Position numbers and translations under genes: made by a program. Shown here piece by piece: positions 16,871 through 49,991 of a stretch of 49,991 bases of DNA. How positions within the stretch are numbered: the stretch's first letter is position 1; every line of letters starts with the position of its first letter. The stretch is from Puniceicoccales bacterium (GTDB lineage Bacteria; Verrucomicrobiota; Verrucomicrobiia; Opitutales; UBA953). Below the pieces are notes generated by a model. That model did not search any database and was not told the origin of the DNA. It was given only the letters and a program-made list of their open reading frames with translations. The stretch covers positions 1-49,991 of the forward strand of contig JAISZI010000037.1 in the NCBI GenBank assembly GCA_031269335.1, in the 5' to 3' direction.

Positions 16871-17566
16871 ATGAAAATTCACTATTTTCAACATGTCCCA
16901 TTTGAGGGACTCGGGAAAATTGAGATGTGGATGCGTTCACGAGGGCACCAGTTGAGTGGGACACGGTTTTTTGCAGGCGAGACACCGGGGGCGGAGATTA
17001 CAGCGTGCGATTGGCTCGTCGTGATGGGCGGTCCGATGAACATTTATCAACACCGTGATTATCCGTGGTTACTCGTAGAAAAAAAGATGATCGAGGCGCG
17101 AATCGAAGCCGGTGCGCGTGTGCTTGGCGTGTGCCTTGGCGCACAGCTCATTGCGGACGTGTTGGGGGCGAAAGTTTACCAAAACGCCGAACGTGAAATT
17201 GGCTGGCTGCCCGTGCACGCCACGCCGCACACTGGAGACGAACGCCTGGCATTTCCCGCTGGGAAATCGACGGTGTTTCACTGGCACGGAGACACCTTCG
17301 ATTTGCCCACCGGCGCGGCACGACTTGCATCGAGCGAATCTTGTGTAAATCAAGCATTTGCGTTCGGGACACGCGTGCTCGGACTACAATTTCATCTCGA
17401 AATGGGCGAGGCGGAAATAGAGCGAATTTGCGAAAACTGTGCCGCCGAAATCACCCCCGGCACCTTTGTCCAAACCAGAACGGAGATGCTGTCACGAACA
17501 CCGGCGGCAGAACCACTTGCGTCTCTGTTACTTAACCACCTCCTCTTGCGCATGGAGCAGCACTGA
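16871..17566 (+). CDS. Class I glutamine amidotransferase (GMP-synthase-like)
   Basis: A 231-residue stand-alone class I glutamine amidotransferase domain. The nucleophile Cys is in LGVCLGAQLIADVLGA, the catalytic His and Glu in LGLQFHLEM, and an oxyanion-side Gly-rich strand in WLVVMGGPMNIYQ. It resembles the GuaA-like, YfeJ-type single-domain proteins whose acceptor substrate is unknown. The frame is open upstream, but homology and the ATG at 16871 set the start. It follows proB with 123 bp between and precedes a tRNA gene by about 110 bp. Operon membership with proB is possible but not shown. No specific function can be assigned. Confidence 0.82.
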   Translation: MKIHYFQHVPFEGLGKIEMWMRSRGHQLSGTRFFAGETPGAEITACDWLVVMGGPMNIYQHRDYPWLLVEKKMIEARIEAGARVLGVCLGAQLIADVLGAKVYQNAEREIGWLPVHATPHTGDERLAFPAGKSTVFHWHGDTFDLPTGAARLASSESCVNQAFAFGTRVLGLQFHLEMGEAEIERICENCAAEITPGTFVQTRTEMLSRTPAAEPLASLLLNHLLLRMEQH

Positions 17567-17628
17567 GCTTTTGCCTGTCCCACGCCCGATATTCTTCGGT
17601 CAAAACAGAACGGAGCTGTTATCACAGC

Positions 17629-17658
17629 TTGACAAAGGGGAATCGGGACAACTTCGTA
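17629..17658 (+). promoter_or_regulatory. Probable promoter of the CAU tRNA gene
   Basis: A perfect TTGACA -35 hexamer at 17629-17634, then an 18-nt spacer and a poor -10-like TTCGTA at 17653-17658, ending 19 nt before the tRNA 5' end. The -35 and position are good; the -10 is weak. Confidence 0.45.
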
Positions 17659-17677
17659 TCTGGTGCAAGTCTGCGTG

Positions 17678-17753
17678 GGGCCTTTAGCTCAATGGTCAGA
17701 GCAGAGCACTCATAATGCTTTGGTTACAGGTTCGAGTCCTGTAAGGCCCACCA
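17678..17753 (+). tRNA. tRNA with CAU anticodon (tRNA-Ile2 or elongator tRNA-Met)
   Basis: A 76-nt cloverleaf with encoded CCA. The acceptor GGGCCTT pairs with AAGGCCC, the D-stem is GCTC/GAGC, the anticodon loop is CTCATAA (anticodon CAU), and the T-arm is ACAGG-TTCGAGT-CCTGT. It is not an initiator, since position 1 pairs normally. The GAGCA/TGCTT anticodon stem and the TGGTT variable loop resemble E. coli tRNA-Ile2 (lysidine-modified CAU) more than elongator Met, but sequence alone does not settle this. Confidence 0.93.
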
Positions 17754-17870
17754 TAACTTGTGACGCGTTCACCTAAATCGGATTTTCCTCCGCGTTCGCG
17801 GCTGGAACCGGGGCGGGTGGCTGTGTCGGTCTTGGTCTCTCTCTCAACTCAAACAAAAACGCATACTCTC

Positions 17871-18914
17871 ATGCCACGTCCAGTAACACTATTCACCGGC
17901 CAATGGGCTGACCTACCATTGGAAACATTGGTTAAGAAAGCCAAAAGTTTTGGCTATCAAGGTCTTGAACTCGCTTGTTGGGGCGACCACTTTGATGTGC
18001 TTCAAGCGGTTGACTCCGACAAATACATCACCGAAAAGTGGGAACTCCTGCTTGATAACGGGTTGGACTCGTTTGCCATTTCAAATCACCTGTCCGGACA
18101 GGCGATTTGCGACAACATTGACGAACGTCACAAAGAAATTGTCGCAAAAGAAGTCTGGGGAGATGGCGACCCCGAAGGCGTCCGCCGCCGCGCTGCCGAT
18201 TACTTGGCAACTGCGGGCAGAGCCGCCCGCCGTTTCTTCGACGCCCGCCCGGGGCGCACAGACGAAGAAAAGGCGAAACCGGTCGTCGTAAACGGATTCA
18301 CCGGCTCGTCCATCTGGGGTGCGCTTTACGCATTTCCGCCCACTTCGCAGGAATACTGGGAACGCGGTTTCCAAGATTTCGCAAAACGCTTCCTCCCGAT
18401 TCTCGAAGTCTTTGAAAGCGTTAACGCCAACTTCGCCCTCGAAGCGCACCCGACCGAAATCGCCTACGATCTCGCGAGTGCGCAACGCGCCGTTGATGCC
18501 GTCAAGGGACACAGGCGTTTCGGGTTTAACTACGACCCGTCGCACTTCGGTTACCAAGGCGTTGACTACGTGAAGTTTATCCGCGACCTCGCCTCGCGCA
18601 TTTACCATGTCCACATCAAGGACGTGTGGTGGGGCAAGGGCGATGGTTCCGTGGGTGTCTTCGGTGGGCACACGAGCTTTGGCGACCCGCGCCGTTTTTG
18701 GGAGTTTCGCTCGCCGGGGCGTGGCAACATCAACTTTGAAGATATCATTGTCGCATTGAACGACATCGGATACGCGGGTCCTCTTTCCGTCGAATGGGAA
18801 GATATTCGCATGAACCGTGAGTTCGGTGCCACCGAAGCCGCCGCCTTCGTGAAAAAGCTGGATTTCCAGACCAATACGCAGGCGTTTGACGCTGCGTTTG
18901 CCCGTAAGGAATAG
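17871..18914 (+). CDS. Sugar phosphate isomerase/epimerase-like TIM-barrel protein
   Basis: A 347-residue protein of the xylose-isomerase-like TIM-barrel superfamily, which holds sugar epimerases, isomerases and inosose dehydratases. Likely metal ligands occur in order: Glu in ALEAHPTEI, Asp and His in NYDPSHFGY, His in [10 protein letters not shown], and Glu in [10 protein letters not shown]. The start ATG at 17871 gives [15 protein letters not shown], a typical N-terminus; the frame is open upstream to the tRNA. No signal peptide. It stands alone between the tRNA and a strong terminator. The substrate is unknown. Nearby araD and araB suggest sugar metabolism but do not prove a link. Confidence 0.82.
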
Positions 18915-18971
18915 AAAAAAACGGGATACGCTCCGGGCGCCTCGCCGTGCGGAGCGCGTCCAAACACTTGT

Positions 18972-19014
18972 CATGCGCCGTCCGGAGGAAGAATCCGGAC
19001 GGCGCATGTGTTTT
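18972..19014 (+). terminator. Strong intrinsic terminator between convergent genes
   Basis: A perfect 15-bp stem: CATGCGCCGTCCGGA at 18972-18986 pairs with its complement at 18994-19008 across a 7-nt loop, then TGTTTTC follows. It lies 57 bp past the isomerase stop and 24 bp before the end of convergent ychF. The T-run favours the plus-strand transcript. Confidence 0.8.
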
Positions 19015-19037
19015 CTAACGGATTCGGCAAGAATGCG

Positions 19038-20144
19038 CTAATTCGCGAAACGGAACAGGGCAACGTCACCGTCTTTGAAAAGATACTCCTTGCCCTCGAT
19101 GCGGTATTTGCCCGCGTCACGGGCGGCAGCAACGGAGCCGACGGCAATGAGGTCTGCGTAGGAAATGACCTCTGCTTTGATGAACCCTTTTTCAAAATCG
19201 GAGTGAATTACGCCCGCACACTGCGGCGCAGTCATGCCACGTTTGAACGTCCACGCCCGCACTTCTTTTTCGCCGGCGGTGAAGTAGGAGGCGAGGCCAA
19301 GCAGGCTGTAAGTGGAACGGATCAGCTGGCTTGCGCCGCTGTCAGAAACGCCGATGGCAGCGAGGTATTCCCGCGCTTCATCTGGGGAAAGCTCGCCAAG
19401 CTCCGCCTCCACTTGGGCGCAGGTGACGCATACACAGGCGTCATTAAAATTGGAAGCGAAGGCGTGGACAGCCTCAACGTATTGATTTCGTGCAGGATCC
19501 GCGAGAGCCGCCTCATCCACATTGCAGGCGTAAAGCACCGGTTTGAGGGTAAGCAGCCCGAAATGCTTCAGGCGGGCACGTTCTTCGACATCGGACACGG
19601 GGAGGGTGGATGCAGGCTTGTTTTCGTTGAGATGCGCGAGAAGGCGTTGGAGAAGCGCTGCGTTGGCGGCGGCATCCTTGTCCTGCCCGCGTGCTTTTTT
19701 GAGGTTACGCTCGAGTTGCAATTCGCAGGACTGCAGGTCGGCGAGCGTTAACTCGGTGTTAATGACCTCAATATCGCGCACGGGGTCAACACCGCCCATG
19801 TTGTGGATAATGCCCTCGTCATCGAAGCAGCGCACAACGTGGACAATGGCGTCAACCTCGCGAATGTTAGCGAGAAACTTGTTGCCAAGCCCTTCGCCCT
19901 TAGAGGCTCCCGCGACCAGCCCTGCGATATCAACAAACTCGACCGCAGCCGGGATAATGACGCCTGTTTTCGCTATGACCGCGAGCGGCGCGAGGCGATC
20001 ATCAGGGACTTCGACGACACCGATGTTTGGCTCAATAGTGCAGAAGGGATAGTTGGCGGCCTCGGCTTTGCGAGAACGTGTGAGTGCGTTGAAAAGGGTG
20101 CTCTTGCCCACATTGGGCAGTCCCGCGATTCCGGCTTGAAGCAT
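19038..20144 (-). CDS. ychF: Redox-regulated ATPase YchF (Obg-related)
   Basis: A 368-residue cytoplasmic P-loop protein of the Obg/YchF family that binds ATP and the ribosome. The Walker A motif GLPNVGKST is at residues 8-16. [20 protein letters not shown] is the switch/G3 region, and NVDE replaces the GTP-specific NKxD, as expected for the ATP-preferring YchF group. The C-terminal TGS-like domain reads [28 protein letters not shown] and ends [15 protein letters not shown] 20144 was chosen because it gives [16 protein letters not shown]; the open frame further upstream runs into araD. It follows araD with 70 bp between, on the same strand. Confidence 0.96.
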
Positions 20145-35618: not shown

Positions 35619-38600
35619 TTACACAAGCGGCACTTCGCCCTGCCCCGATGCGACAACAGGGGCAGGCGGCGGTGTTTGTTTCTTTTTTCTACGACGGTGC
35701 ACCAGCGCAAATGCGACAATAAACACGCCGGAAAAGAGGCCATAGGTGCCAGGTTCGGGAATGTTGGTGTAGCCGGTTTGCTCCAAGATCAGGCGTCCGT
35801 CGGTGGTAAATGACAAACTGAAACGGCTGTTCAATATCTCAAGTACGTCTTTTCCGAATATTTCCTCGGCAAGAGCGTCCACATTTACGCCAGCGGCCAA
35901 AGCCATTGCGCCAGTGTCCAACCCGTCCATAAGCGTGAAGTGTCCTGGAAAGGTAAGCCCGTTGTCCTGCGAGGGCTGTGGGATGTAGCCAAAAGCGTCA
36001 ACGCGCAGGGTGGTGCCAGCGTTCAACACGACAGAGCCGCCGTTACCGGTGACTGTTAACTTCGGGTTAGGCGCGCCGAAGCTGTCAATGTCGGAAGTGT
36101 CGAGACGAAACACAAGCGTGATATTGTCAGAGGTCAGTTCACCGAATTTCAGCTCGGTGGAAGCGTCTATTGTAAATTGCCCCGGATTCACGACGAGCGT
36201 GGTGTTATTTTCCATGACAAAACTTTGCGTATGAACTTTTCCACCGCCGCCGACATACAGCACAGAGCCACCTTTTACCCTGAATGCTCCAGCACCGTTT
36301 CCATAGCTTTGTCCGGCGGGAGTATTCAGGTGGAAAATGCTGCCGCCGGCGACCGTGGTTGTTCCGGCAAAGTTGTTGGCGTTTCCAGCATAATAGAAGG
36401 GCATTCCACTGTTTATTTTCAGGGTGCCGGTGCCGGTGATCGCGCCGCTTGCGTATTGATAGTCGCCATTATACGCAAATTCGACAGTGCCGCCGGTTTC
36501 GATGTTCATACTGCCTGTGTAACGGGCGTGGTAATAGGTGGCTTGCCACGAAGTGCCGCCGTCAAAAGTTTCCGTTACCGTGCCGAGTGGTCCGGCTATT
36601 TGCAAGGTGCCCGAACTCGCGTGGAGATTGCCCTGGAAGGGATTTTCTCTTTGATAGTAGGAACCAAAAACCGGGTTGGAATTTGTGAAGCCACGTCCGG
36701 CGATTATGAGCGTGCCGGTAGAAGCGTTGGAGAGCGTTCCGTATTTACCAGAAGCGCCAGGTTTTATTTTGCCAGAGAGCGTTTGCACGTCGGTTCCGGT
36801 GTATTGGAAAACGCCATTTTCACCGAGGATAATATCCTTTGTGTAATTGTTGTTTTCGCCCATTGACCCCGCCGACACCACGCGCCCGCTGAGTATTTCC
36901 AAATTCGCCTTGAAGGATGCGCCGCCGACGTAGGAAATAATGGTTGTGTTTGCTAGCGGAGAGGGCGCAGTGCCCGGATTCGCAGCATGATTTACCACCA
37001 ATTTTATGTTCTCCGCGAGTGCTCCGAGGAGACCGAAGTTGCCGGCGCCAGACAGCGTTAATTGCGTGCCACCAAAAACGTTGATTGTTTTGCCATTCGC
37101 TCCCAGCCAGACAACGGCACCGCCGGTGGTACTGCTTGTGAGCGTGCGGTTTCCAGAAAGAGTGACATTGCCGGAAAAAGTGAGATCTTGGTCGCCGACA
37201 AAAGTGACGTCACCGGTGATCGTGTAATCATTGGACACCGTAACAGCACCCGCACTTGTCGCACCGAGCGAGCCTCCCGCGTGGGTGAGTGTGCCGCCAC
37301 CGAATGCATTATTGTTTCCAACAAGCACAGTGCCGCTTTCGAGTGTAAAACCGCCGGTGAACGTATTTGTCCCGTTTAATATCACCTTCCCCGTTCCATT
37401 GCCCTGCACTTTTACGCCGGCGTTTATACCGCTTATTTGACCGTTGAAAATCAAATCGCCGGAACCATTCATTCCTATAAAAATGGTCTCGCTGGTTGAC
37501 TTGCCTTGCGCTGTGTCGTAACGCGCCACGATGGGACTGTTTATAGTGACATTCATCGCGCTGTTTTGGAGAATACTCGTCTGAGTATTGTCGCCATAAA
37601 AACCGGAGTCCAAAGACAGGGTTCCGCCGTTCAAAGAAAAGGAGTCCGAAGACGCGCCGTTCTTAAACTCGAGGGTGCCCAGTGTTTTCCCGCCGGAGAG
37701 GTTGATTATTTTACCGCCGAGTGTCGCTTTGGCACCGTCAAACACTGCCATTGCCGTAGCAGAATCAGGATAAGAGGAATGCCCTCCGGAAACGTCTTCC
37801 CAGTTGTTTTTTCCCGTCCATATTTGCGAGTCTGCCGCGTCCGCTCCCGTCCATGTGAAAACGGTGTCGAAGGGCATCAAGACTAATTGTGCGCCGTTCG
37901 GATCGGAGTTCAGGCGGACAACGCCAATCGTCGATGCGGAGGCTCCCAGTTTTACATTGGTTACAATTGCGCCGATGCCCATCCCTGGCGTTAAAATGCG
38001 CGTCGGTCCCAAGCCTGTTGTTGTATCGCCGTTCCAATTGAGGAAATGCAGGATACTTGTGTCCGCGACGTTGATGCTGCCGTTAATTGTAAATGTAAGC
38101 GGGTTTGTCGCCGTCCATGCAGAACCGGAAATATCCATGTCGATCGTGGCGAGAACATTGCTGCCTTCGACGCGGATATTGTTCACGGTTTGCGTGGTTT
38201 TATTTAAGTTGAGCGCGGGACCGGAGGCAGTGACTGTGCCGTTGGCGAAAACAAGATTGCCGACATCCGCCAGCAAATTGCTTTTTTCCAACACAACGCC
38301 CGTGCCGCCGTTTGCTTTGCTTTTAACAGTGAGCGTTTCCGCTTTTATTTTCACACCAAGGTTGAAGTTTGTGGCGTGGATATTTTGCGCATCGAGGACG
38401 CCTTCTTGTCCGGCGGTGTCGGCACTTACCAACGAACCGCCGGAGCCGAGGACGGTCGTCACATTCGTGCCAGAAATTTTCAGCGAGCCGCCATCGTTAA
38501 GCGTGTAACGATTCGCGCCGCTGGATTCGAGCGTGACCGTAGCATTGGCAGTGGTAGCCTTTATTTCAAAGGTCCCTGCCGTGCCGGTGCCGGTAGCGGT

Positions 38601-41600
38601 TTGGGTGATGCGTGCGCCCGTCCCAAATGCGACGTCCGCGCTGGCAGTGGTGTTGTTTATACTGACTGCGTTTCCTGAGACTTCGGTGCGCACCGTGCCA
38701 GCCTGTGCAATGATGTTCTGCGAGATCTGATTGTTTGTGTTTGTAAGTTCCAGTGTTCCCGTGCCGAGTTTGACTATTTGCGCACGATTGCCGGTGTTTT
38801 CTCTTACTCGCGATTCCACGCGCAGAGTGGCACCCGAGGAAACATCAAAGCTTATCTGCGGTGCTGCCGGAAGATCCACATAAGAAGCGGTTAAAACCAG
38901 TCTGTCCGCTTTGTTTTCCACCGCTTCGGATTTCCCAAAAGAGAGGTAATTTCCGGTGAGCGCAAGATTGTTGGAAAGCGTGTGTGATGTCGTGCTTGAG
39001 TCGCTACTATAGACACGTAATTTACTCGAGCTATTCAAAGTCAACGTGCCGCGACCGACTGGACCACTGATGATACTGCCGGAATTACCCACAGAACTCG
39101 CGCCAATTTCCAAGATGCCAGTGGATGTCAGCCCTCCGCTAAACGTGTTGCCAGAACCCAGTATCCGCAACGCGGTGCTATAAAAATAGAGCTTGCCTGT
39201 ATCGTCTCCCGTAAGGACGAAATTCTTTCCAAAAACAAATGCTCCGTCGTAAAAATAACGGGATACATTTGCCCCTATTGTGCTGTTTCCGAGGGAATCT
39301 TCAAAAGTAATGGTCCCCGAAGTATGCTGTGTTCCGGTGGTATCCCAAATCACGCGGTTCTGCAATTTCACCCCACCCGCCGGAGTAGCAACTAATTCGG
39401 CGGAAGATGCGTCGCTGCTATTGGCCCTCATATACAGATTGCCCAAGCCCAGAGCGTTATCCGCGTCCATGCGGACAGAGCCTTCGTTCCATGAAAAATC
39501 ACCGGTGAAAGTGTTGCTGGAAGTGAGGTGCAATTCGCCGCCGCCCGTTTTCTTTATACCACCGGGAGTTCCGGCGATGGCGTTGGAAATAACGCCGTCA
39601 AGTTTGAGCACGGGTCTTGTTTCACTGCTCGCAGTCCAGACAGTGTTAATGGTATGGGTTCCCGCGCCAAGTTTGCCGTCTCCTTCCAAGGTTAAATTGT
39701 CGAATGCGGAATTAGATTGAGATTGCGAGTATCTTCCAATGGTAAGATTCGCGTTGAGCGTGTAACCTCCGTCAAGACGAATGGTCCGCCCAGTGCCGGA
39801 AGGGTTGTCCGTGGCAAAAGAATATACTTTATCCAAGTTCGGATTTGCCGCCGTGCTGTTTGTTCCGCCGATATAGAAATGCCCGCTTCCTGTAAGACGA
39901 TAATCGCTCGCGCCGCCCAGAATTGCAAGCGCGATGTTGTCTTCCCAAATCAAATTGCCGGTCCATGCAGCGTTGTTTCCCTTCATTACTAAGTTGGCAC
40001 TGCTATAACGGTCGTTGTTTCCATTCCCTTTGAGTATCAAGTTTCCGTTTCCGGATATGGAATTAGCCAAAACCAATTCAACCCCGCTCCCGTGGATTCC
40101 CTGCGTTTGTAATTCCAACGATGAAACTAAGTTCCAATTGGTCGTCATCGTTACATTGGATTTGGAATGCACTAACAACGCACCGTGCCCGCCGATAGAA
40201 AGCCCGTGGGTTCCGTTAAAACTCAGCGTCCACGAACCTCCTATGGTATAAGAAGACGCACTCGATTGGAGGCTTAATTTTCCAATGGTATAATTGCCGT
40301 TCACATCAATGGTTTTGCCCTGAAGCGAACCGTCTAAACCGCCAATCGTAGCTATGGCACCCCCATTGTTCGGGACGCTTCCTTTTGACCAGTTTGAGGC
40401 GGTGCCCCACAGAGTCCCCGATCCTTTCCATTCATTGACAGTAACATTGGATGCGGGAAGCAGGTAATGGAAGCCATCGTATTCCACCAATTTCGCCCCT
40501 GCTTCGTAACCAGAAAAGGTGATATTAGCAAGGCGTTCACGATCATCGGGTATAGTAGAATTTAAATAATATAGGGTTTTAAAACGAATATAGGAGTGGT
40601 CGGTGTTAGCCCCCCAAGCGTCACCGTCGCCGTTTTGTATAAAGAGCTGGGCGGTCTTGCTCCACAAGTAAAACGCAGAAGTGAAGGTTATCCCGCCATC
40701 TGCTCCGGTGAGAATAGTACTGTCGCCGGTAAGGTGGAGAAAAGGGATCACGGTGGTGTCGCCCTGCCCGTGGGTAAGAGTGGTGTTCTGCTTTGTTCCA
40801 TTTAAGTCTAATGTTCCGCCCGCCAATTCTATATACCTACCGTCCTGGGGTGTCTTTCCTTGCACACCCAATTGATCATTATTTGTAAGCTTGAGCGTTC
40901 CCGCATACAAAGAAATTTTACTCTGAACTTGAAATTTCTCCACGCTTGTACCTATGGTCGTCGTGGTGTCCGGGCTTCCTTTTCGGGAAAAAGAATTGAC
41001 GGCTATTATACCGTTTTTGTTGTTTCCACTTTGCAAAGAGATGGTGTTATTTGACCGACCGTAAGTCTCGAGATTTATCTCGCCGCTTATTGCGGTTTGA
41101 TATATTTCCAGATTATGGTCAAACCGAAGGGTGCCACTGCCGGTGAGATTACCGCCTTGCAAATAAACGGTTCCGGTTGCGTTGCCGTCAACGACCCACA
41201 AGCTGCTGCCACTTGCAATATCCAGAGTGCCGCCCTTCAAATAGGTAGGCGCGTTGGCAGTCCACTGAATTCTTCCCTCCGTGATGCTGATATTGCCGGA
41301 CCCCAACGGGTTATACCCGTTCTCCAACGCGCCCAGCGTGATGCGGGACTGGGTGCTCGGAACCAATACATGTAAATAACTGCTTCCACTTTTTACCAGA
41401 CCGCCGGAAAACGTATTTCCCATGCCTTCAATTCTCATGCCATAGTTTCCCGTATCGAGGGTCAATTTCCCCGATCCCGTGAACTTCAAATCAGGTCCGA
41501 AAATGACGGACTGCCCACTGTATTCAGCCGACTTTGTAGGACCGACAGCGGTTATTTTTTTATCACCGGTGACTGCCACTTCGCCATTGTAATAGAAACC

Positions 41601-44564
41601 TATGGCGGATGCCGTTAAGTCGCCACCCAATATAATTTGGTTTTGAATTTTACGGGTGTATCCGGACGCCAAACCAAGGTTTTGGTCATACCCGACGATA
41701 GCACCTCCGCCGGCGCCGATAGTGATGGGACCGGTCCCGAAGTAGTTTCCCGTCGTCGTGGAATTAGGCGCACCGGTGACGCCGATTTGCCTGCCGTTAT
41801 TGAGAAAAATACCGCCGGAAAAATCATTTTCAGCGTTTCCAAATTGAATGGAACCGCCGCCGGTGTTTTCAAAAACAATTCTCCCCGTGCCGGAGATTTT
41901 TCCTAAAAACCGTGTATAGTTACTCGTCGTCTCGATTTTTAAGTCACTGTTTAATTGGACGGAAAGGTCGCTGGTCAAAACAGTATAGTTTCCTCCCATG
42001 ATATATTTCGCCTGCGCGCCCGTAACACCGCTGTCAAAGATCAGCTTTCCGTTGGTAAAACTAAGGCTGCTCGCGCCTATACTAAGCGTTCCCAGTGTCA
42101 CCGAATTATTATCGAGACGAATGACGCTGGAAGAAGGCACGCCGCTGGCGAAAGTGGCGGAGACGCCGGGGGAATTGGGGATGTTAAAAATGTCGTCGCC
42201 TTCCCAGTTTCCAGCGGAGAACCACTTGTAATCAAGCGCACCGTTGTCCCAAGTGCTTGTGAGAAAACCGCTGTTGGGCGTGAGGACGCCGTTGGAGAGG
42301 GACGCGCCTTTGTTATAGCCGTAAAACCAGACTTGCCCCGAGGAGGCGCTCATGGAGGTGGCTTTGACGATGTCGGGCGCGGAAGAAAACGCGGAACCTG
42401 TGTAGTCGAGGATGCGCAAAAGAGAGGCCGCGCCAAGGGAGAGATTACCGAGGTCGAGCGTGGTAGAAGTATCCCTGCTTCCGCCGAGCGAAATGGTGCC
42501 GACGGCATTCGCTACGGTAGAGACATTCTGGAAAGTTCTGCTGTTTCCGTGGAGGGTGACTGTGCCTGCGTTGGAAAGAACGAGCGGCGCAGTAACTTGG
42601 TTAACGAGCACTGCCGGCGAACCTTCAAAAGAGAGGGTGGCGTTGGCGATGTTTATAGCAGAACCGCTGATCCTGGTCGCACCAACTTTGAGGGTTCCGG
42701 CGGAAAGATTCATTCCGGAAGCAAGGTTGAGCTGCGTGATGGTTGGATCGAGGGTGACCGTTCCAGCACCGGTTTTGTTGAGAACCTTGGAGAGGGTGAC
42801 CTGTCCGCTTCCGTCTCGGGAGAGGGTTTGGGCGGCGGAAGAGGTGAGGTTCAAGACGTGGGTGTTCGTAATGGCACCGGTAGTGCTTTTGAAAACGACG
42901 TCGCCCGCGAAAGCAAGCCCGGCGGCGGGGACACCGACGATGGCGGTGTCGCCGAGTTTGACGGTGCCGGAGAGAACGAGGTTTCCGGTGCCGTTCAGGT
43001 TGATGTTGCCGGCGGCGAGGTCGAGCGTGCCGCTGTTGAAGGCAAGGGTCGCCCCGTTGAGCAGGGAGATGTTGGCGGTGGCGCCGAGGGTGAGCGTGTT
43101 GGTCGCGACGTCGGCGGAAATTTCGAGAAGGGTGTTCTGCCCGTTCACGGTTACCGTGCCGGCACCCAGGACGCTGGCGGAGCCGCCGAGCGTGGACGCG
43201 GCAGTGGTCAGATGGGCGGCGAATTTTCCTGCGGTGACGCTGAGGGCGGCAAAGGTGTTGTTCGCACTGCGCATCACGAGCGTGCCGCCGCCGTTTTTGA
43301 CAAGCGTGCCGCTGCCGGAAAACGATTGGTTTTCCCCGATGTCAAAGGCGGTGAAGCTTTCGACGGTGATTGTGCGATCGCCAGAACCAATGCCGCTGGT
43401 GAAGGAGAGGGCGGGATTAAGGGTGAGCGTGAGGGCGGTCGCACCTTGCTGGGGATTGTCTGAACGCCCGACGACGAGGTCGGAGGCGGCGATGTCGATG
43501 GTGTTGGCCAGCGTGCTGCTCGCGGCAACACCGCCGACAGCGGCGAGGGAGAGCTTGCGGGAACCGCCAACGCCGCCGCCGAGGACAATCCGGTCCGTGC
43601 CAAGCGCATTGCTCGCGGAAATGGCTATGGTGCCGTCGTTGAACGCGATGTTCCCGGTGAGACTGTTGCCGTTTCGGGTGACAACAAGGGTGCCTGTGCC
43701 GGTTTTGACGAGGGTGCCGCTGCCCAGAATGTCGCCATTAAGGGTGATAACGCCGGTGGAGTCGATGGTGTCAAAGGTGACTTGGTGTCCTCCGAAGCTG
43801 AAAATGTTGTCAAAGGTGATGCTGCCGAACGTGACGCTGTTGTTGGCAACGACGAAGTCGGCGTTGGCGTAAACATTGGCGCCAAACTTGAGCGACTCGC
43901 CGCCAGACAGGGAAATGCCCGCATCAGCACCGCTGAAATAGAGCGCAGCAGCAGGATCCGCGCCCGGAGCAATGGTGGTGAAAAGCGGCGAATTGGCGTA
44001 AATCGCGGTAGAACCCGAAAAGGTCAGGGCGTTAAGGCTGCGGGAGGCGCCAAGGGATATGGTCTGACCAGCGAGAGCGGGCGTGCCCGTTCCCGATAGG
44101 TCGAAGGCAGCGGTGTCAGCGGCGGAGCCGGGGACGCCGGACGGCGACCAGTTGGCGGTGTCGCCCCACGCTAAGGGAGCCGCGCCACTGCCGCCTGTCC
44201 AAATATAGGTGGCGGCGTAGGCACCAGGGACAAGCAGCGGAAAACCCGATTCTGTCGGGAGGGCAACCGTGCCGAAGGCAAGAAGTGCCGCGGCAGCAAG
44301 CGTGCGGTGCGAGAGCGCAAAAACGCGTGAAGCACGTGAAGCACGGGCTTCGCGAAGAGAACGCCCTTCGCGAAAACGCGTAGTCGCAGAGCCGCCGCAA
44401 CGCGCAGTCGCGGAGGACAGCGGCGGCGTCCCGTTGCCTGAGGCACGGGAATCAGCGGCGCAAACGGCGTCGGTTTGGATAGTCTCGCGGCGACAAACGC
44501 TGTTGCCGGTTGGACGGTTGGTGTTGGTTAGATCGTTGGTGTTGGTTACTGTGTATTCTTTCAT
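35619..44564 (-). CDS. Giant autotransporter-repeat surface protein with PEP-CTERM anchor
   Basis: A 2,981-residue secreted protein, Gly/Ser/Thr/Asn-rich. A long N-terminal presequence of about 120 residues leads to a hydrophobic core (TLAAAALLAFGTVALP) and a likely cleavage after GAYAA. The body has about a dozen PATR-like repeats of the form GTLxKxGxGTLxL..NxFxGG..xxxGxL, predicted to wind into a beta-helix. It also has four recurring W...NW...P modules (starting IWTGGSG, YKWFSAGNW, EWKGSG and FTWTGAD), spaced 600-860 residues. The C-terminus ends NIPEPGTYGLFSGVFIVAFALVHRRRKKK plus 18 residues: PEP motif, transmembrane stretch and basic cluster, i.e. a PEP-CTERM exosortase signal. There is no autotransporter barrel. 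ATG 44564 precedes MKEYTVTNTND; a longer frame to 44651 is unsupported. Function as a surface adhesin or matrix protein is inferred. Confidence 0.88.
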   Translation of the reverse strand: MKEYTVTNTNDLTNTNRPTGNSVCRRETIQTDAVCAADSRASGNGTPPLSSATARCGGSATTRFREGRSLREARASRASRVFALSHRTLAAAALLAFGTVALPTESGFPLLVPGAYAATYIWTGGSGAAPLAWGDTANWSPSGVPGSAADTAAFDLSGTGTPALAGQTISLGASRSLNALTFSGSTAIYANSPLFTTIAPGADPAAALYFSGADAGISLSGGESLKFGANVYANADFVVANNSVTFGSITFDNIFSFGGHQVTFDTIDSTGVITLNGDILGSGTLVKTGTGTLVVTRNGNSLTGNIAFNDGTIAISASNALGTDRIVLGGGVGGSRKLSLAAVGGVAASSTLANTIDIAASDLVVGRSDNPQQGATALTLTLNPALSFTSGIGSGDRTITVESFTAFDIGENQSFSGSGTLVKNGGGTLVMRSANNTFAALSVTAGKFAAHLTTAASTLGGSASVLGAGTVTVNGQNTLLEISADVATNTLTLGATANISLLNGATLAFNSGTLDLAAGNINLNGTGNLVLSGTVKLGDTAIVGVPAAGLAFAGDVVFKSTTGAITNTHVLNLTSSAAQTLSRDGSGQVTLSKVLNKTGAGTVTLDPTITQLNLASGMNLSAGTLKVGATRISGSAINIANATLSFEGSPAVLVNQVTAPLVLSNAGTVTLHGNSRTFQNVSTVANAVGTISLGGSRDTSTTLDLGNLSLGAASLLRILDYTGSAFSSAPDIVKATSMSASSGQVWFYGYNKGASLSNGVLTPNSGFLTSTWDNGALDYKWFSAGNWEGDDIFNIPNSPGVSATFASGVPSSSVIRLDNNSVTLGTLSIGASSLSFTNGKLIFDSGVTGAQAKYIMGGNYTVLTSDLSVQLNSDLKIETTSNYTRFLGKISGTGRIVFENTGGGSIQFGNAENDFSGGIFLNNGRQIGVTGAPNSTTTGNYFGTGPITIGAGGGAIVGYDQNLGLASGYTRKIQNQIILGGDLTASAIGFYYNGEVAVTGDKKITAVGPTKSAEYSGQSVIFGPDLKFTGSGKLTLDTGNYGMRIEGMGNTFSGGLVKSGSSYLHVLVPSTQSRITLGALENGYNPLGSGNISITEGRIQWTANAPTYLKGGTLDIASGSSLWVVDGNATGTVYLQGGNLTGSGTLRFDHNLEIYQTAISGEINLETYGRSNNTISLQSGNNKNGIIAVNSFSRKGSPDTTTTIGTSVEKFQVQSKISLYAGTLKLTNNDQLGVQGKTPQDGRYIELAGGTLDLNGTKQNTTLTHGQGDTTVIPFLHLTGDSTILTGADGGITFTSAFYLWSKTAQLFIQNGDGDAWGANTDHSYIRFKTLYYLNSTIPDDRERLANITFSGYEAGAKLVEYDGFHYLLPASNVTVNEWKGSGTLWGTASNWSKGSVPNNGGAIATIGGLDGSLQGKTIDVNGNYTIGKLSLQSSASSYTIGGSWTLSFNGTHGLSIGGHGALLVHSKSNVTMTTNWNLVSSLELQTQGIHGSGVELVLANSISGNGNLILKGNGNNDRYSSANLVMKGNNAAWTGNLIWEDNIALAILGGASDYRLTGSGHFYIGGTNSTAANPNLDKVYSFATDNPSGTGRTIRLDGGYTLNANLTIGRYSQSQSNSAFDNLTLEGDGKLGAGTHTINTVWTASSETRPVLKLDGVISNAIAGTPGGIKKTGGGELHLTSSNTFTGDFSWNEGSVRMDADNALGLGNLYMRANSSDASSAELVATPAGGVKLQNRVIWDTTGTQHTSGTITFEDSLGNSTIGANVSRYFYDGAFVFGKNFVLTGDDTGKLYFYSTALRILGSGNTFSGGLTSTGILEIGASSVGNSGSIISGPVGRGTLTLNSSSKLRVYSSDSSTTSHTLSNNLALTGNYLSFGKSEAVENKADRLVLTASYVDLPAAPQISFDVSSGATLRVESRVRENTGNRAQIVKLGTGTLELTNTNNQISQNIIAQAGTVRTEVSGNAVSINNTTASADVAFGTGARITQTATGTGTAGTFEIKATTANATVTLESSGANRYTLNDGGSLKISGTNVTTVLGSGGSLVSADTAGQEGVLDAQNIHATNFNLGVKIKAETLTVKSKANGGTGVVLEKSNLLADVGNLVFANGTVTASGPALNLNKTTQTVNNIRVEGSNVLATIDMDISGSAWTATNPLTFTINGSINVADTSILHFLNWNGDTTTGLGPTRILTPGMGIGAIVTNVKLGASASTIGVVRLNSDPNGAQLVLMPFDTVFTWTGADAADSQIWTGKNNWEDVSGGHSSYPDSATAMAVFDGAKATLGGKIINLSGGKTLGTLEFKNGASSDSFSLNGGTLSLDSGFYGDNTQTSILQNSAMNVTINSPIVARYDTAQGKSTSETIFIGMNGSGDLIFNGQISGINAGVKVQGNGTGKVILNGTNTFTGGFTLESGTVLVGNNNAFGGGTLTHAGGSLGATSAGAVTVSNDYTITGDVTFVGDQDLTFSGNVTLSGNRTLTSSTTGGAVVWLGANGKTINVFGGTQLTLSGAGNFGLLGALAENIKLVVNHAANPGTAPSPLANTTIISYVGGASFKANLEILSGRVVSAGSMGENNNYTKDIILGENGVFQYTGTDVQTLSGKIKPGASGKYGTLSNASTGTLIIAGRGFTNSNPVFGSYYQRENPFQGNLHASSGTLQIAGPLGTVTETFDGGTSWQATYYHARYTGSMNIETGGTVEFAYNGDYQYASGAITGTGTLKINSGMPFYYAGNANNFAGTTTVAGGSIFHLNTPAGQSYGNGAGAFRVKGGSVLYVGGGGKVHTQSFVMENNTTLVVNPGQFTIDASTELKFGELTSDNITLVFRLDTSDIDSFGAPNPKLTVTGNGGSVVLNAGTTLRVDAFGYIPQPSQDNGLTFPGHFTLMDGLDTGAMALAAGVNVDALAEEIFGKDVLEILNSRFSLSFTTDGRLILEQTGYTNIPEPGTYGLFSGVFIVAFALVHRRRKKKQTPPPAPVVASGQGEVPLV

Positions 44565-45061
44565 AAAAAAGTGATTTAGACGTGGTAAAGCTTGTGGTGA
44601 TAAAGGCTTATGGACAAAATGCCCCGAGGCGCGTTTCCAACGCACAGCCATAGCGAGTGCGCAAGAAACCCCTTGCGGGAAACTTGCCTAACTACTTGAT
44701 TTACAAGGAATTAAGCGAGGGAAGTGGGGAGGAGGGGTGGGGGTAAGTCCAGCGGAACGAAGAACTTACGTAATGCTACCAATGAAAAAAATGAACGAAA
44801 TGCCGCACGAAGCGCGTCAGGGGGGAATGCAGACAGGCTAAGCCCACGACTCGCATAACTGGATGAGTCGCGGGAAGATTTGAAAAAGAGGATGGCGGCT
44901 TTTCGTTCAGACATATAGGCGTTTTTTGGGCGTCGTTGGATGTTAGTCTTTTGGTGATTACAGGTGTTTTTGCAGAAGAAAATGAAATATCCTGCCAAAG
45001 CAAGCGTTTTTTTGAAAAAAGTGGAAAAAAGTTTTCCGCAGTCGAAAGACGCAGGACAAAA

Positions 45062-45194
45062 GCAGGCAGAATGCGGGATGGATGCAGGCAGAATGCGGGA
45101 TGACACGGGCAGGAGGCGGGTGGGAAGCGGGCGGGAAGGCAGGTGGAATACGGGCAGGAAGCGGGTGGAACACGGGCAGGAAGCGGGTGGAACA
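45062..45194. repeat. 22-bp tandem repeat, about six copies
   Basis: Six consecutive units of 22 bp (one of 23), of the type CGGGCAGGAAGCGGGTGGAACA. Units 1-2 are a close pair (GCAGGCAGAATGCGGGATG...), units 5-6 are identical, and 3-4 are intermediate. Strand-asymmetric: purine-rich on plus. Confidence 0.9.
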
Positions 45195-45254
45195 CGGTGT
45201 CGAACACGTGGGACAGGACCTCACACGAAGCCGCAGAACCACGAGGGAAGGCGC

Positions 45255-45402
45255 AGAAGATAGGGGATAGGGGGTATGAGGTAGGATGCAGCGGGCATGG
45301 GGGTAGGGGATATGGGATATGAGGTCGGAGATAGAGGACATGGGGATAGGGGGTAGGAGGCAGGGGATAGGAGGTAGGGATAGGGGATAGAGAAGTGCGG
45401 GA
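45255..45402. repeat. G-rich imperfect array (GGGGATA/GGGGTAGG units)
   Basis: About 150 bp of degenerate 7-14-bp units such as GGGGATAGG, GGGGTAGG and GGGATATGAGG on the plus strand, almost free of C. Several runs of three to five G with short loops could fold into a G-quadruplex on this strand. Confidence 0.8.
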
Positions 45403-45406
45403 TTGA

Positions 45407-45744
45407 ACTCCCCCGAAGGGGCACAACGTGAATAACCGCCGGTGGAGCGCGAGCACAGCGAGCGCGGAACCGGCGGATGCCGCAACCAACCACCCGCGCC
45501 CTGAAGGGGCGCAACTCCAGACCTCGGTTACGTGCCGCTGCCTCAGATACACCCCCGCTGCGTATCCGTCTCCGCACGCCCTCGCTGCGACTATGCTGCG
45601 CTTATGTCGCGCCTCTGCGGGGGGGGGCACGGCCAACGGTTGTTGGTCGCGCCCCTGCGGGGCGCGGGGAGAGAGGGGGTCGCTGTCCGGCAGTTCCGCT
45701 GCGCTTCACTGCCGGTTATTCACGTTGTCCCCCTTAGGGGGAGC
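45407..45744. repeat. Inverted repeat pair flanking a 0.3-kb non-coding segment
   Basis: ACAACGTGAATAACCG at 45423-45438 is repeated as its exact complement at 45713-45728. Both are flanked by a small CCCCC...GGGGG hairpin, so arms of about 25-30 nt enclose roughly 270 bp. The interior is GC-rich, includes GCGCCCCTGCGGGGCGC palindromic stretches and a run of nine G, and encodes no recognisable protein. Confidence 0.65.
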
Positions 45745-45802
45745 GAGAATGCAACAAGTGCGGATCACGTTATCCCCATCGGGGGGATACGTTGTCGGCT
45801 TC

Positions 45803-46207
45803 ACCCCAAAAGGGCGGTTCTAATGTGGCCAGGGCAACGCCCTGGGTTTGGAGGGAAAGGGAAACCATAGCCCCAAAGGGGCGGCTCCAAGTCAGCCCAG
45901 ACATGGGAGCGCAGGCGTCCCGCCTGCACGACTGCCCGCAGCCCCAAAGGGGCGGCCCCAATATAGCCCAGGGCACGCCCTGGGTTTGGAGGGAAAGGGA
46001 AACCATAGCCCCAAAGGGGCGGCTCTAAGATAGCCCAGGGCAACGCCCTGGGTTTGGGAAACCAAAAAAATCATAAGCCCCAAAGGGGCGACCCCAATCC
46101 CCAGCCTGGGGCAGCGCCCCGGGCTATCATCGGGATGCGCCGTGGCGCGGGTAAATTAGGGTGCACCGTCGCCTTCGCCCCACCCTTCCCCAGGGCGTTG
46201 CCCTGGG
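45803..46207. repeat. Cluster of alternating palindromes P1 and P2 (BIME-like)
   Basis: P1 (CCCAGGGCAACGCCCTGGG) or near copies at 45829-45845, 45967-45984, 46034-46052 and 46189-46207 (inverted), with a variant near 46104-46124. P2 (GCCCCAAAGGGGC) at 45870-45882, 45941-45953, 46008-46020 and 46077-46089, with a variant near 45803. Spacers such as TTTGGAGGGAAAGGGAAACCATA are also repeated. A separate GCAGGCG-TCC-CGCCTGC palindrome sits at 45911-45927. The alternation resembles bacterial interspersed mosaic elements. Confidence 0.88.
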
Positions 46208-46220
46208 CTATCTTAGGGTC

Positions 46221-46426
46221 GCCCCTTTGGGGCTTCGTGTGAGCCGTTCTTTTCGGCAGCCTCATTCGTGGTTACCTTTGGGGTTTCGTGTGAGCGGCTC
46301 GCACGCGTGCGTTCCCTCGTGGGTTTTTTGCTAACTTAGGGCCGCCCCTTTGGGGCTTCGTGTGAGCCGTCCTTTCCGGCAGCCTCATTCGTGGTTATTC
46401 GTGATCATTCGTGGTTACCTTTGGGG
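46221..46426. repeat. Two long direct repeats with inverted P2 palindromes
   Basis: P2 in inverted form at 46221-46233 and 46344-46356, each followed by a direct repeat starting TTCGTGTGAGCCGT (46234-46283 and 46357-46426). The second copy carries an extra ATTCGTGGTT-type internal duplication of about 20 nt. The stretch reaches to within 50 bp of the second surface-protein stop and may affect its 3' end. Confidence 0.8.
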
Positions 46427-46475
46427 CGACCCCGTAACTGCCAAAGCGTAGTGCCCCTTCGTGTGCTGCCCTGCC

Positions 46476-49400
46476 CTATCCCTCGTGTCCGGCACCGCGA
46501 GCCGCCGAACGGCGGCGGCGGCGCAATAACGCAAAGGCGGCGATAAATACGCCAGAAAAGAGGCCGTAGGTGGCGGGTTCGGGGACGCCGATGTAGTCGG
46601 TTTGGTCTAAGATCAGGCGTCCGTCGTCGGTAAATAATAAACTGAAACGGCCGTTCAATATCTCAAACTCGTTTTGTCCGAATATGGCTAATGCGAGTCC
46701 GTCCATGCCTACGCTGGCGGAGGCTGCCATCGTGGCAGTATTCAACCCCGACATAAGTGTAAAGTGTCCGGGGTAGCTCGCCCCGTTATCTTGCGAGGGT
46801 TGGGGGATGTAGCCAAATGAGTCAACGCGCAGGGTGGAGCCAGCATACAGGACGACGGAGCCGCTGTTGCCGGTGATTGTTAACTTCGGAATAGGGCTGT
46901 CGGCGGTGTCAACGTCGTCGGGGGCGAGGCGAAACGCGAAGGCGATATTATTACCGGGTATTTCGCCGAGTTTCAGTGTTGTAAAAGCGTCTATTGTAAA
47001 TTGTCCCGGATTCACGACGAGCGTGGTGTTATTTTCCATGACAAAATTTTCCACGTGCATTTTCCCGCCGCCGCCGACATACAGCATGGAGCCACTTTTT
47101 ACCGTGAATGCTTTTGCGCGAGCACCCTGTGTTCCGTAGCTTTGTCCGGCGGGTCCGCTCAGGTGAAAAATGCTGCCGCCGGTGATAGTGGTCGTGCCGG
47201 TAAAACCACTGGCGTCTCCGGTGTAATAGAAGTTTTGTTTTGTGTTTATTACGAGGTCTCCGCCGCCGGAAAGTTTGCCGGTGTGGAGTTGGTAATCGCG
47301 GTCGTATGTAAAGGTGAGTGTGCCGCCGTCGGCGATTGTTATATTGCCGTAGTATTGCGCGTGTTGGTAGCTCGTCCCCATCGGCGTTCCACCGTCGAAG
47401 GTTTCTATTTTTGTGTTCAGGCGACCGCTTACAGTTAAAATGCTTCCAGAGTCGCCAATATACAAATCGCCTTGGAAGGTGTTGTGTCCGTAGGCAGCGG
47501 CGGTTTTTCCTTCGTTGGGATTGTAGTGCGGGGTGTTGTCGAGGTCGGAGCTGATTTCTACTTTGCGTCCGTTTGAAATGGATAATACGGTGCCGGATTC
47601 GCCGCTTATACTGCCGCTAAGAATTTGCGTGAATCCCAAATCTACACCGCTAAATTCAAGGACGCTCTCGGTGGCACCGTTCTCTTTGGTAAGTTGTATT
47701 TTTCCGGTGTAATTTCGCCCGACGATGGTGGCAGGGCTGCCGCTGTCATATACAGTGCCGAGACCGCCGGCAATTGTTAGTGTATTGCCGCTGACGCGTG
47801 TGTCGCCGGTGTATGTTTGGTCGCCGGTGAGAGTAAAGACGCCGCCGCCTGTCCCGCTTCTTACCACATGTCCGGCTCCGCTTATATTGCCCGTGTATGT
47901 GAGGTTGCTGTCGCCAGCGTTTTTATTAAATTCAATGGTTCCCGGGAGAATGTTTTCACCGGTTACGCCGAGGTCAACTTTGGGGAGTTCCAAGAGACCA
48001 TCTCCACCGATAACGACGCGTGCTCCCGTTGTTATATGCAGCGTATCGTCGCCGCGGCGAGGGGTGGGTTCGTTGTTTGCGCCGCTGGTGACTTTATTTT
48101 CAAAGCGGACGAGTGCCCCGTCTTGCGCAATGAGTGTGACGGGGACGGCAGAGGGGTATTCGTAAAAATAGTTATTGGCTTCAATGTCGTAGGGTTTTAT
48201 TGTAATGGAACCGCCTTTAATGACGATGTTTGTAGTATCTCCGCTGATGACGAGAGTGTTCGGGGCAACACCGTTGTCGTGGACATTTATTTCTCCGGTG
48301 CTGTCGCCGATTTTGGCTTTGTAGGTGTTTGCGAAAATAACTATATCGCCGTTTGCAAAAGTGTAATTGGGGTCGAAATCAATGGGAGTGTCGGCGAGAT
48401 CGATATCGTCGGCGCGGTAGAAGTTTCGTGTAGTATTGACAGCTTTGTCCGCCCAGATATGCGTTGCGGCGGTTTTTGTAGCGCCCCAGTAGAGGGCGTA
48501 ATAAGCATCCACAGCGTTTAATATAAGGTCGTTTCCGCCGTTGCCAATTGTGAGTGAATAGAAGTGGTGCGGGTCGGGGACGGAACCGTCTTCAAGGAAG
48601 GTGGTTGCCTCGTAAGTTGTGCCGCTGGTGCCATTGGTGGTGACGCCGCCGGTAGTCGTAAGTATCGTGTATTGAAGGCGTTTTGTGCCACCCCAAATGC
48701 CGTTGATATTTATCGTATTATTGTCTTTGAAAACAACGCTTCCCGTGTGGCTGAGAAAGTCGCTGGTAGTGTTGCTGTCGTTATCGTGTGCAACATTTAT
48801 TTTATACTGGATATTGTCGTAAACAACGGAGTTATTTGTCGATGTAAAATGAATTTCTCCGAAGCGGGTTGCGTCCGACGCATTAGGTTTTCCTGGGGAA
48901 ATGATGGTGTTCGCAGCGAAAGTGACATTGCCGGTAATTCCACCGTTTCCGGCGAGAGTGCTTCCGCCGGAAAAGTTTGTCTGCGCGAGAGATACAATGC
49001 CTTTTTCGTCACCGCCACTATTGTCGAGGACAAAGCTACCGCCGGTTACGTTGAGCGTGCCCGTCGCCACCCCACTCTCCTCTAATCCTTCTATCTTTCC
49101 GGTGAGAGTGAAGGTGCCGGTGCCAGACTTTATAATCGTGCCTTGGATAGCGTTTGTTTGCGTAGTACCGGAATAAGTTTGGTTTACCGTTTGGTCGAAA
49201 TGTAAAGTAGCACCGTCTCCTACTTGAATTCTTCCCGAGTAATCGGCTGTCGTGGCACCAGTGGAACCGAGCACGCCCGTTATTTTCAAGGTGCCGCCGG
49301 TCACATTTGTGTAGCTTATGGTTTCGTTGTAGGTATTGCGACCGGAGAGAATTTGAGTCCCAGCTCCGCTTTTCACCAACCAGGCGTTGTTTCCAGTAAT

Positions 49401-49991
49401 AACGCCGCTGTAGGTAGTGCTATCGCCATCAGAATTATTCAACGTGAGTATGGTTCCATTGTAGATATTCACGCGGCTGCTTCCGGAATCAGCACCGGAG
49501 AGTGTTTCCACAATTGTTTTTCCTTGGTTGGAACCGCTCGTCGGGGCACTGATGGAGGTGAGCGAATAAACAGCTAACACACCATTATTGACAACGCTTC
49601 CGCGGAGCATGATGGGGAGACTATTAGCATGATTTGTCTTGAGCGTGGAACCTTTGTTTACAGTGACGAGTCCGCGGAGAGAAGGAGGCTCTCCATTTAC
49701 AACAGGAGCGTTTACAGTCACCACAGAAGTGGCTCCGTTTTCTACGCCAATATAAACGGGCGAATAAACATTCTCGGTCTTAAAAATGGTCTCTGCGTTT
49801 TGTATATAAAGCGTGAGGACACCCGTGGTAGTAGTGACACCGTCGAAAGCGATAGCAGAGCTATCGCCGCTGGTGGTGCTGCCGCTACGGGTCTGATCCG
49901 CAAAGCCGACTGTTTTTGCAGCGATAGCGACTTTGCCTGCTCCCGTGAGCGTAAGCGCGGCACCGGCAGTATTCGCGTCAAGATTGGTGTT
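46476..49991 (-). CDS. Second autotransporter-repeat PEP-CTERM surface protein (5' end outside the window)
   Basis: At least 1,171 residues, continuing beyond the right edge. Translating 49725-49991 in the same frame shows no stop (…AFDGVTTTTGVLTLYIQNAE…), so the GTG at 49724 is not the start and the N-terminus with its signal peptide is missing. The body is PATR-like (GAGTQILSGRNTYNETI, GTGTFTLTGKIEG, GTGGGVFTLTGDQTYTGDT), consistent with a beta-helix. The last 300 or so residues closely match the giant neighbour, including NNTTLVVNPGQFTIDA and FGYIPQPSQDNG. It ends VPEPATYGLFSGVFIAAFALLRRRRR plus ten residues: a PEP-CTERM exosortase signal. Role as a surface-anchored adhesin or matrix protein is inferred. 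Confidence 0.88.
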   Translation of the reverse strand, partial: NTNLDANTAGAALTLTGAGKVAIAAKTVGFADQTRSGSTTSGDSSAIAFDGVTTTTGVLTLYIQNAETIFKTENVYSPVYIGVENGATSVVTVNAPVVNGEPPSLRGLVTVNKGSTLKTNHANSLPIMLRGSVVNNGVLAVYSLTSISAPTSGSNQGKTIVETLSGADSGSSRVNIYNGTILTLNNSDGDSTTYSGVITGNNAWLVKSGAGTQILSGRNTYNETISYTNVTGGTLKITGVLGSTGATTADYSGRIQVGDGATLHFDQTVNQTYSGTTQTNAIQGTIIKSGTGTFTLTGKIEGLEESGVATGTLNVTGGSFVLDNSGGDEKGIVSLAQTNFSGGSTLAGNGGITGNVTFAANTIISPGKPNASDATRFGEIHFTSTNNSVVYDNIQYKINVAHDNDSNTTSDFLSHTGSVVFKDNNTININGIWGGTKRLQYTILTTTGGVTTNGTSGTTYEATTFLEDGSVPDPHHFYSLTIGNGGNDLILNAVDAYYALYWGATKTAATHIWADKAVNTTRNFYRADDIDLADTPIDFDPNYTFANGDIVIFANTYKAKIGDSTGEINVHDNGVAPNTLVISGDTTNIVIKGGSITIKPYDIEANNYFYEYPSAVPVTLIAQDGALVRFENKVTSGANNEPTPRRGDDTLHITTGARVVIGGDGLLELPKVDLGVTGENILPGTIEFNKNAGDSNLTYTGNISGAGHVVRSGTGGGVFTLTGDQTYTGDTRVSGNTLTIAGGLGTVYDSGSPATIVGRNYTGKIQLTKENGATESVLEFSGVDLGFTQILSGSISGESGTVLSISNGRKVEISSDLDNTPHYNPNEGKTAAAYGHNTFQGDLYIGDSGSILTVSGRLNTKIETFDGGTPMGTSYQHAQYYGNITIADGGTLTFTYDRDYQLHTGKLSGGGDLVINTKQNFYYTGDASGFTGTTTITGGSIFHLSGPAGQSYGTQGARAKAFTVKSGSMLYVGGGGKMHVENFVMENNTTLVVNPGQFTIDAFTTLKLGEIPGNNIAFAFRLAPDDVDTADSPIPKLTITGNSGSVVLYAGSTLRVDSFGYIPQPSQDNGASYPGHFTLMSGLNTATMAASASVGMDGLALAIFGQNEFEILNGRFSLLFTDDGRLILDQTDYIGVPEPATYGLFSGVFIAAFALLRRRRRSAARGAGHEG

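Follow-up and report, generated by a model that had tools for sequence, protein, structure and literature searches.

Probable exosortase-sorted beta-helix proteins with a shared C-terminal end-cap, apparently homogenised by gene conversion, in a Puniceicoccales genome

Similarity among PEP-CTERM regions is much stronger within than between species, from which Haft et al. 2006 inferred paralogous expansion (PMC1569441). The locus described here resembles the PEP-CTERM/EpsH system of that account in its PEP motif, hydrophobic helix and basic cluster; the genome likewise has one exosortase and several paralogues. Unlike in the published description, the within-species similarity here continues for 200-300 residues ahead of the signal, and the tails of these giant beta-helix proteins form an apparent gene-conversion mosaic.

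The passengers of type Va autotransporters are also related in kind. The two proteins at this locus, A and B, share with them the PATR/TIGR02601 repeat class and a predicted beta-helix; unlike type Va autotransporters, they have no C-terminal barrel and carry PEP-CTERM in its place, and their end-cap has no detectable relation to the pre-barrel region. Akkermansia muciniphila, with 23 predicted PEP-CTERM proteins of which nine were detected by mass spectrometry (PMC4960237), also combines PEP-CTERM proteins and autotransporter-barrel outer-membrane proteins in one bacterium. Unlike the present genome, no shared module ahead of PEP-CTERM and no conversion are described in the accessible part of that account.

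For meningococcal tpsA, the accessible part of the account (PMC3848433) describes paralogous genes of large secreted proteins that exchange 3' segments, and a similar exchange is likely here. The tpsA exchange diversifies the C-terminus, whereas here the C-terminus is uniform and the bodies differ; the secretion systems also differ.

Neither this module nor gene conversion of PEP-CTERM tails is the subject of any paper found in the literature search. Within the literature covered, a shared part reaching into the beta-helix end and a formal mosaic are apparently undescribed, though in line with expectation. The finding adds neither a new system nor a new export domain; it represents the established PEP-CTERM/exosortase system in a form specific to this lineage. 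It would provide a sequence-level example of PEP-CTERM tails being propagated, and kept similar inside one species, by gene conversion; the converted cassette would take in the beta-helix end, beyond the 24-residue signal. In addition, the same repeat class occurs with barrels and with PEP-CTERM, a natural setting in which to compare two exit routes for similar passengers.

Two large genes and their common ending

The window, that is the whole stretch of DNA analysed, is 49,991 nucleotides long and covers positions 1 to 49,991 of contig JAISZI010000037.1 (here C63) of a Puniceicoccales assembly (GCA_031269335.1). Both genes, and all features given for them below, are on the minus strand. Protein A (35619..44651) has 3010 amino acids counted from the first ATG; the second ATG, at residue 30, is a possible alternative start. 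Its most hydrophobic N-terminal stretch by hydropathy, residues 117-131 (44259..44303), is the putative core of a Sec signal, preceded by a long, basic n-region of about 116 residues. Protein B (46476..49991) is read over 1171 amino acids; its N-terminus is incomplete, the gene being cut by the contig end.

The two genes are separated by about 1.8 kb and are not immediately adjacent. A TTG ORF in the interval (44776-45636) is probably not a gene; its translation resembles non-coding repeats. The spacer (44652-46475) contains dense palindromic repeats (AGCCCCAAAGGGGCGGC..., CCAGGGCAACGCCCTGGG). The genome contains 27 occurrences of GCCCCTTTGGGGCTANG and none of its reversed control; about 10 of the 27 sites, as counted by reading, lie within ~1.3 kb of giant autotransporter or PEP-CTERM genes (on C32, C49, C63, C69 and C88).

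Both proteins end in a PEP motif, a predicted transmembrane helix and a basic cluster, the features of a PEP-CTERM/exosortase substrate. The NCBIfam PEP-CTERM model TIGR02595 scores 17.2 bits in A and 23.7 in B (curated cut-off 16); Pfam PF07589 stays under its gathering score in both. The signal of A, IPEPGTYGLFSGVFIVAFALVHRRRKKK, is encoded at 35682..35762 and its transmembrane helix, placed by the AlphaFold model and hydropathy, at about 35679-35744; the signal of B, VPEPATYGLFSGVFIAAFALLRRRRR, is encoded at 46509..46586 (TIGR02595, hydropathy). The helix has a hydropathy of 1.9 and is followed by six R/K within ten residues.

Upstream, the autotransporter beta-strand repeat model TIGR02601 scores 32.3 bits in A and 29.8 in B (cut-off 19.85), and Pfam PATR falls slightly short of its gathering score. 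The best repeats are residues 2418-2445 of A (37317..37400, TIGR02601/PATR) and 714-740 of B (47772..47852, TIGR02601). The autotransporter beta-barrel, PF03797, has no match in either protein up to an E-value of 1. A and B are probably exosortase-sorted beta-helix surface proteins which share an end-cap homogenised by gene conversion.

The shared C-terminal module with PEP-CTERM spans 35676..36566 in A (297 aa) and 46506..47399 in B. BLASTP aligns the proteins over 395 C-terminal residues at 55% identity (E 2e-110); identity is 64% over the final 295 residues, and at the DNA level the coding tails reach 77% over 717 nt. Within the tail, 36161..36222 and 46985..47046 differ at one of 62 positions. 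This 62-nt identity exceeds expectation from overall similarity, since none of 5000 codon-column permutations reached a stretch of such length with at most one mismatch (maximum 57 nt).

Mosaic tails on different bodies

The draft genome, 2.50 Mb in 113 contigs and 94% complete, has seven copies of the module: those of A and B, and one each on C48, C26, C107, C38 and C16. Six are complete; the C16 copy stops at the contig end inside the module. In the A/B/C48 triple, the mosaic test pairs A with C48 at 74 of the 94 upstream informative sites and B with C48 at 115 of the 151 downstream ones, with the switch of partner at about position 36356 of copy A (maximum chi-square 70.5; 0/5000 permutations). 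Over most of the final ~240 nt of their shared coding sequence, B and C48 are 98-100% identical, and they have 141 nt in a row with no more than one mismatch (0/5000 permutations); C26 and C16 are likewise 98-100% identical across the final ~240 nt. Similarity among the copies collapses just beyond the PEP-CTERM coding part; therefore there is no long duplicated DNA block. The tails appear to be mosaics produced by gene conversion among several paralogues on different contigs, not merely between neighbours, in a fragmented draft where short-read chimeras at repeats could mimic part of the mosaic.

The sequence-only reading had described about 300 common C-terminal residues, repeat bodies that differ and about 60 nt differing at one position, and had suggested recent duplication of the neighbours or gene conversion. 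The observations hold at the values given above, A and B aligning to each other in the tail alone, and the partner switching argues for conversion. Duplication fares differently. A recent tandem duplication, with the repeat bodies diverging afterwards, would account for the common strand, the 1.8-kb gap, the common tail and the 62-nt tract. However, A finds its full-length partner on C48 (35% identity, 3080 alignment columns). The body of B matches C107 at 31.6% (1021 columns) and C38 at 27.9% (1038), and these two are themselves 52% identical at full length (1562 columns). Tail sites that change partner along the alignment also argue against it. The full-length body comparison already largely refutes this explanation, which is extremely improbable. 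Because the sister of A is on C48 and the body of B is nearest to C107 and C38, A and B appear to be different proteins with a common ending, not recent duplicates.

Assembly of a draft in 113 contigs could produce mosaic tails by itself, as near-identical tails favour mis-joins and the C16 copy is cut off precisely where its contig stops, within the module. Such an artefact is very unlikely: the last ~240 nt of B and C48 are not fully identical and carry private differences, the identity of this pair declines gradually toward the 5' side, and that between A and B is local, with flanks that differ on both sides. Strong selection on protein and codons, in place of conversion, might explain the 62-nt identity, given that the encoded MENNTTLVVNPGQFTIDA stretch is among the better-conserved parts of A, B, C48 and C26. 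This is also unlikely, if slightly less so; third positions in the tract match too, C26 encodes a similar peptide with a DNA identity of only ~70%, and the codon-column permutations (0/5000) speak against it.

Predicted structure and exit routes

The AlphaFold model of the last 420 residues of A, made with a seven-sequence alignment, has a pLDDT of 80.9 and a pTM of 0.80. It contains short strands throughout, an alpha/beta cap at model residues 291-371 (35769..36011) and a helix at 380-401. The strands are read as the right-handed beta-helix expected of the repeat class, which the cap would end, and the helix is predicted to correspond to the PEP-CTERM membrane segment. The model of the B tail is weaker (pLDDT 66.1, pTM 0.63, cap partly below 50) with the same order of elements; since it is much less confident, details of the cap come from the A model alone. 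Foldseek finds no match to the tail model in the PDB at E<=0.001. The top-ranked entries, none of them significant, are autotransporter passengers at TM-scores of just 0.2-0.4; a PDB sequence search gives a single chance-level match (E 0.11).

By analogy with the known system, A and B would be exported by Sec until the C-terminal hydrophobic helix and the Arg/Lys cluster stop threading in the inner membrane. The single exosortase would then recognise the signal and cut near PEP, and the path would end in release or in attachment to the outer surface. Sorting, cutting and surface location of A and B are presumed from that system. The shared ~200-300 residues would represent the final beta-helix coils and a small alpha/beta cap beside the PEP-CTERM linker; the cap may close and stabilise the beta-helix. 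Gene conversion, the preferred explanation, would exchange paralogous 3' ends, so that unrelated repeat bodies keep a nearly uniform tail.

The exosortase ORF (L037, C7:4165-5238) scores 118 bits against PF09721 and 53.6 bits against TIGR04178 (cut-off 23), and the motifs CSGVR, Arg (R) and His (H) can be read directly in it. It is the sole clear exosortase in the genome, and it reaches the cut-off of none of the named Xrt subtypes listed. Its neighbours, from reading of the ORFs, are tgt-, glycogen-synthase- and ABC-transporter-like, with no obvious exopolysaccharide cluster near the gene, unlike the PEP-CTERM/EpsH system (PMC1569441).

The genome also has many autotransporters. PF03797 is above cut-off at 18 places in 2.5 Mb, of which two adjacent ones on C80 may be one broken gene; these places are on C46, C111, C49, C88, C69, C33, C32, C84, C91, C8, C45, C16, C19 and C80 of this genome (G000), and the barrel-bearing open frames reach 5131 aa. 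The bodies of the C107 and C38 proteins match autotransporter passengers of the genome at ~30% identity over 600-980 columns (E down to 1e-59), a likeness which places them in the same repeat class and is not proof of recent common descent, because the sequences are repetitive, low-complexity beta-helix. It is conceivable, if unlikely, that one stock of beta-helix passengers takes either a barrel or the gene-converted cap and PEP-CTERM cassette at its C-terminus, with 3' recombination switching between outer-membrane autotransport and exosortase sorting.

Distribution of the module

The sequence-only reading had also suggested that the module may be dedicated to surface display or export, and had proposed searching Verrucomicrobiota genomes for it and checking that it always precedes PEP-CTERM and occurs together with an exosortase. 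The last two checks agree with it in this genome: PEP-CTERM directly follows the module in all seven copies, and the exosortase on C7 is present. The wider claim of a dedicated Verrucomicrobiota export domain lacks support, as described below, both from PEP-CTERM proteins of this genome and from distribution.

Five of the 12 places with PEP-CTERM above cut-off are without the module. They make up a second group whose tail hardly varies (...PEPSTYALWGS..., TPEPSTYALWGSSLLAGLVFLRHRRRRKG), located at L034:3406-5439 and 17490-19550, L035:3-767, L036:4931-6949 and L031:1-765. The three members read at full length have ~680 aa, and the one member compared with Pfam is an FG-GAP protein, with seven FG-GAP_2 repeats. 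In this genome the module implies PEP-CTERM; PEP-CTERM sorting does not require the module, because these five proteins are without it. A separate ORF, L031:17906-19687, weakly matches a PatA-type protease model; its PEP-CTERM-like tail, STPEPSTYAFWAGTLALALTPIARRKKK, is under the TIGR02595 cut-off.

The strict module, ~200 aa ahead of PEP-CTERM (35763..36362 in copy A), was the query of the wide searches. Its profile, A3, has 201 positions; PEP-CTERM was removed because family-wide matches were mostly to the PEP-CTERM motif alone or to generic repeats. A3 finds weak matches in two of eight congeners, none in the other 70 genomes of a 79-genome family set and none in the 288 other genomes of a phylum set, the two sets overlapping by a few family genomes. 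When the module alignment was compared with named genome contigs, the PEP-CTERM part alone was matched, in an Acidobacteria MAG. Of the 79 family genomes, 73 have an exosortase and 59 have PEP-CTERM above cut-off. Given these counts and the weak matches in two congeners only, the PEP-CTERM/exosortase system appears to be general in the family and the exact module local and lineage-specific.

A profile of the regions ahead of PEP-CTERM in five congeners, A6, matches A3 with a probability of 97.3% (E 1.7e-11), a comparison somewhat biased by the choice of the congener caps, which was made partly via a profile containing PEP-CTERM. As a negative control, the pre-barrel region taken from six of this genome's autotransporters gives a probability of 0.1% against each of A3 and A6. 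A comparison of A3 with profile A2 was trivial, as the two have sequences in common, and that with A6 was used instead. Because A6 matches A3, the module appears to be a local version of a genus-wide end-cap.

These results bear on the possibility that exosortase substrates require the module as a dedicated domain for surface display or export. Its constant place directly ahead of PEP-CTERM (7/7), its absence from all autotransporter proteins compared and the diverged relative at the same place in congeners would suit such a role. This reading is nevertheless rather unlikely, as the five module-less proteins, including the three of ~680 aa, pass the PEP-CTERM cut-off, and the strict module is missing from nearly all relatives despite the frequency of PEP-CTERM (59/79) and exosortase (73/79) among them. 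The strict module is practically confined to this genome, and a local end-cap spread by gene conversion remains the favoured explanation.

Very long open frames are also seen in relatives. Frames of 13549, 12014, 11590 and 6989 aa, on L066 (G020:C160), G036:C33, G045:C37 and G008:C67 respectively, match the repeat profile or PEP-CTERM.
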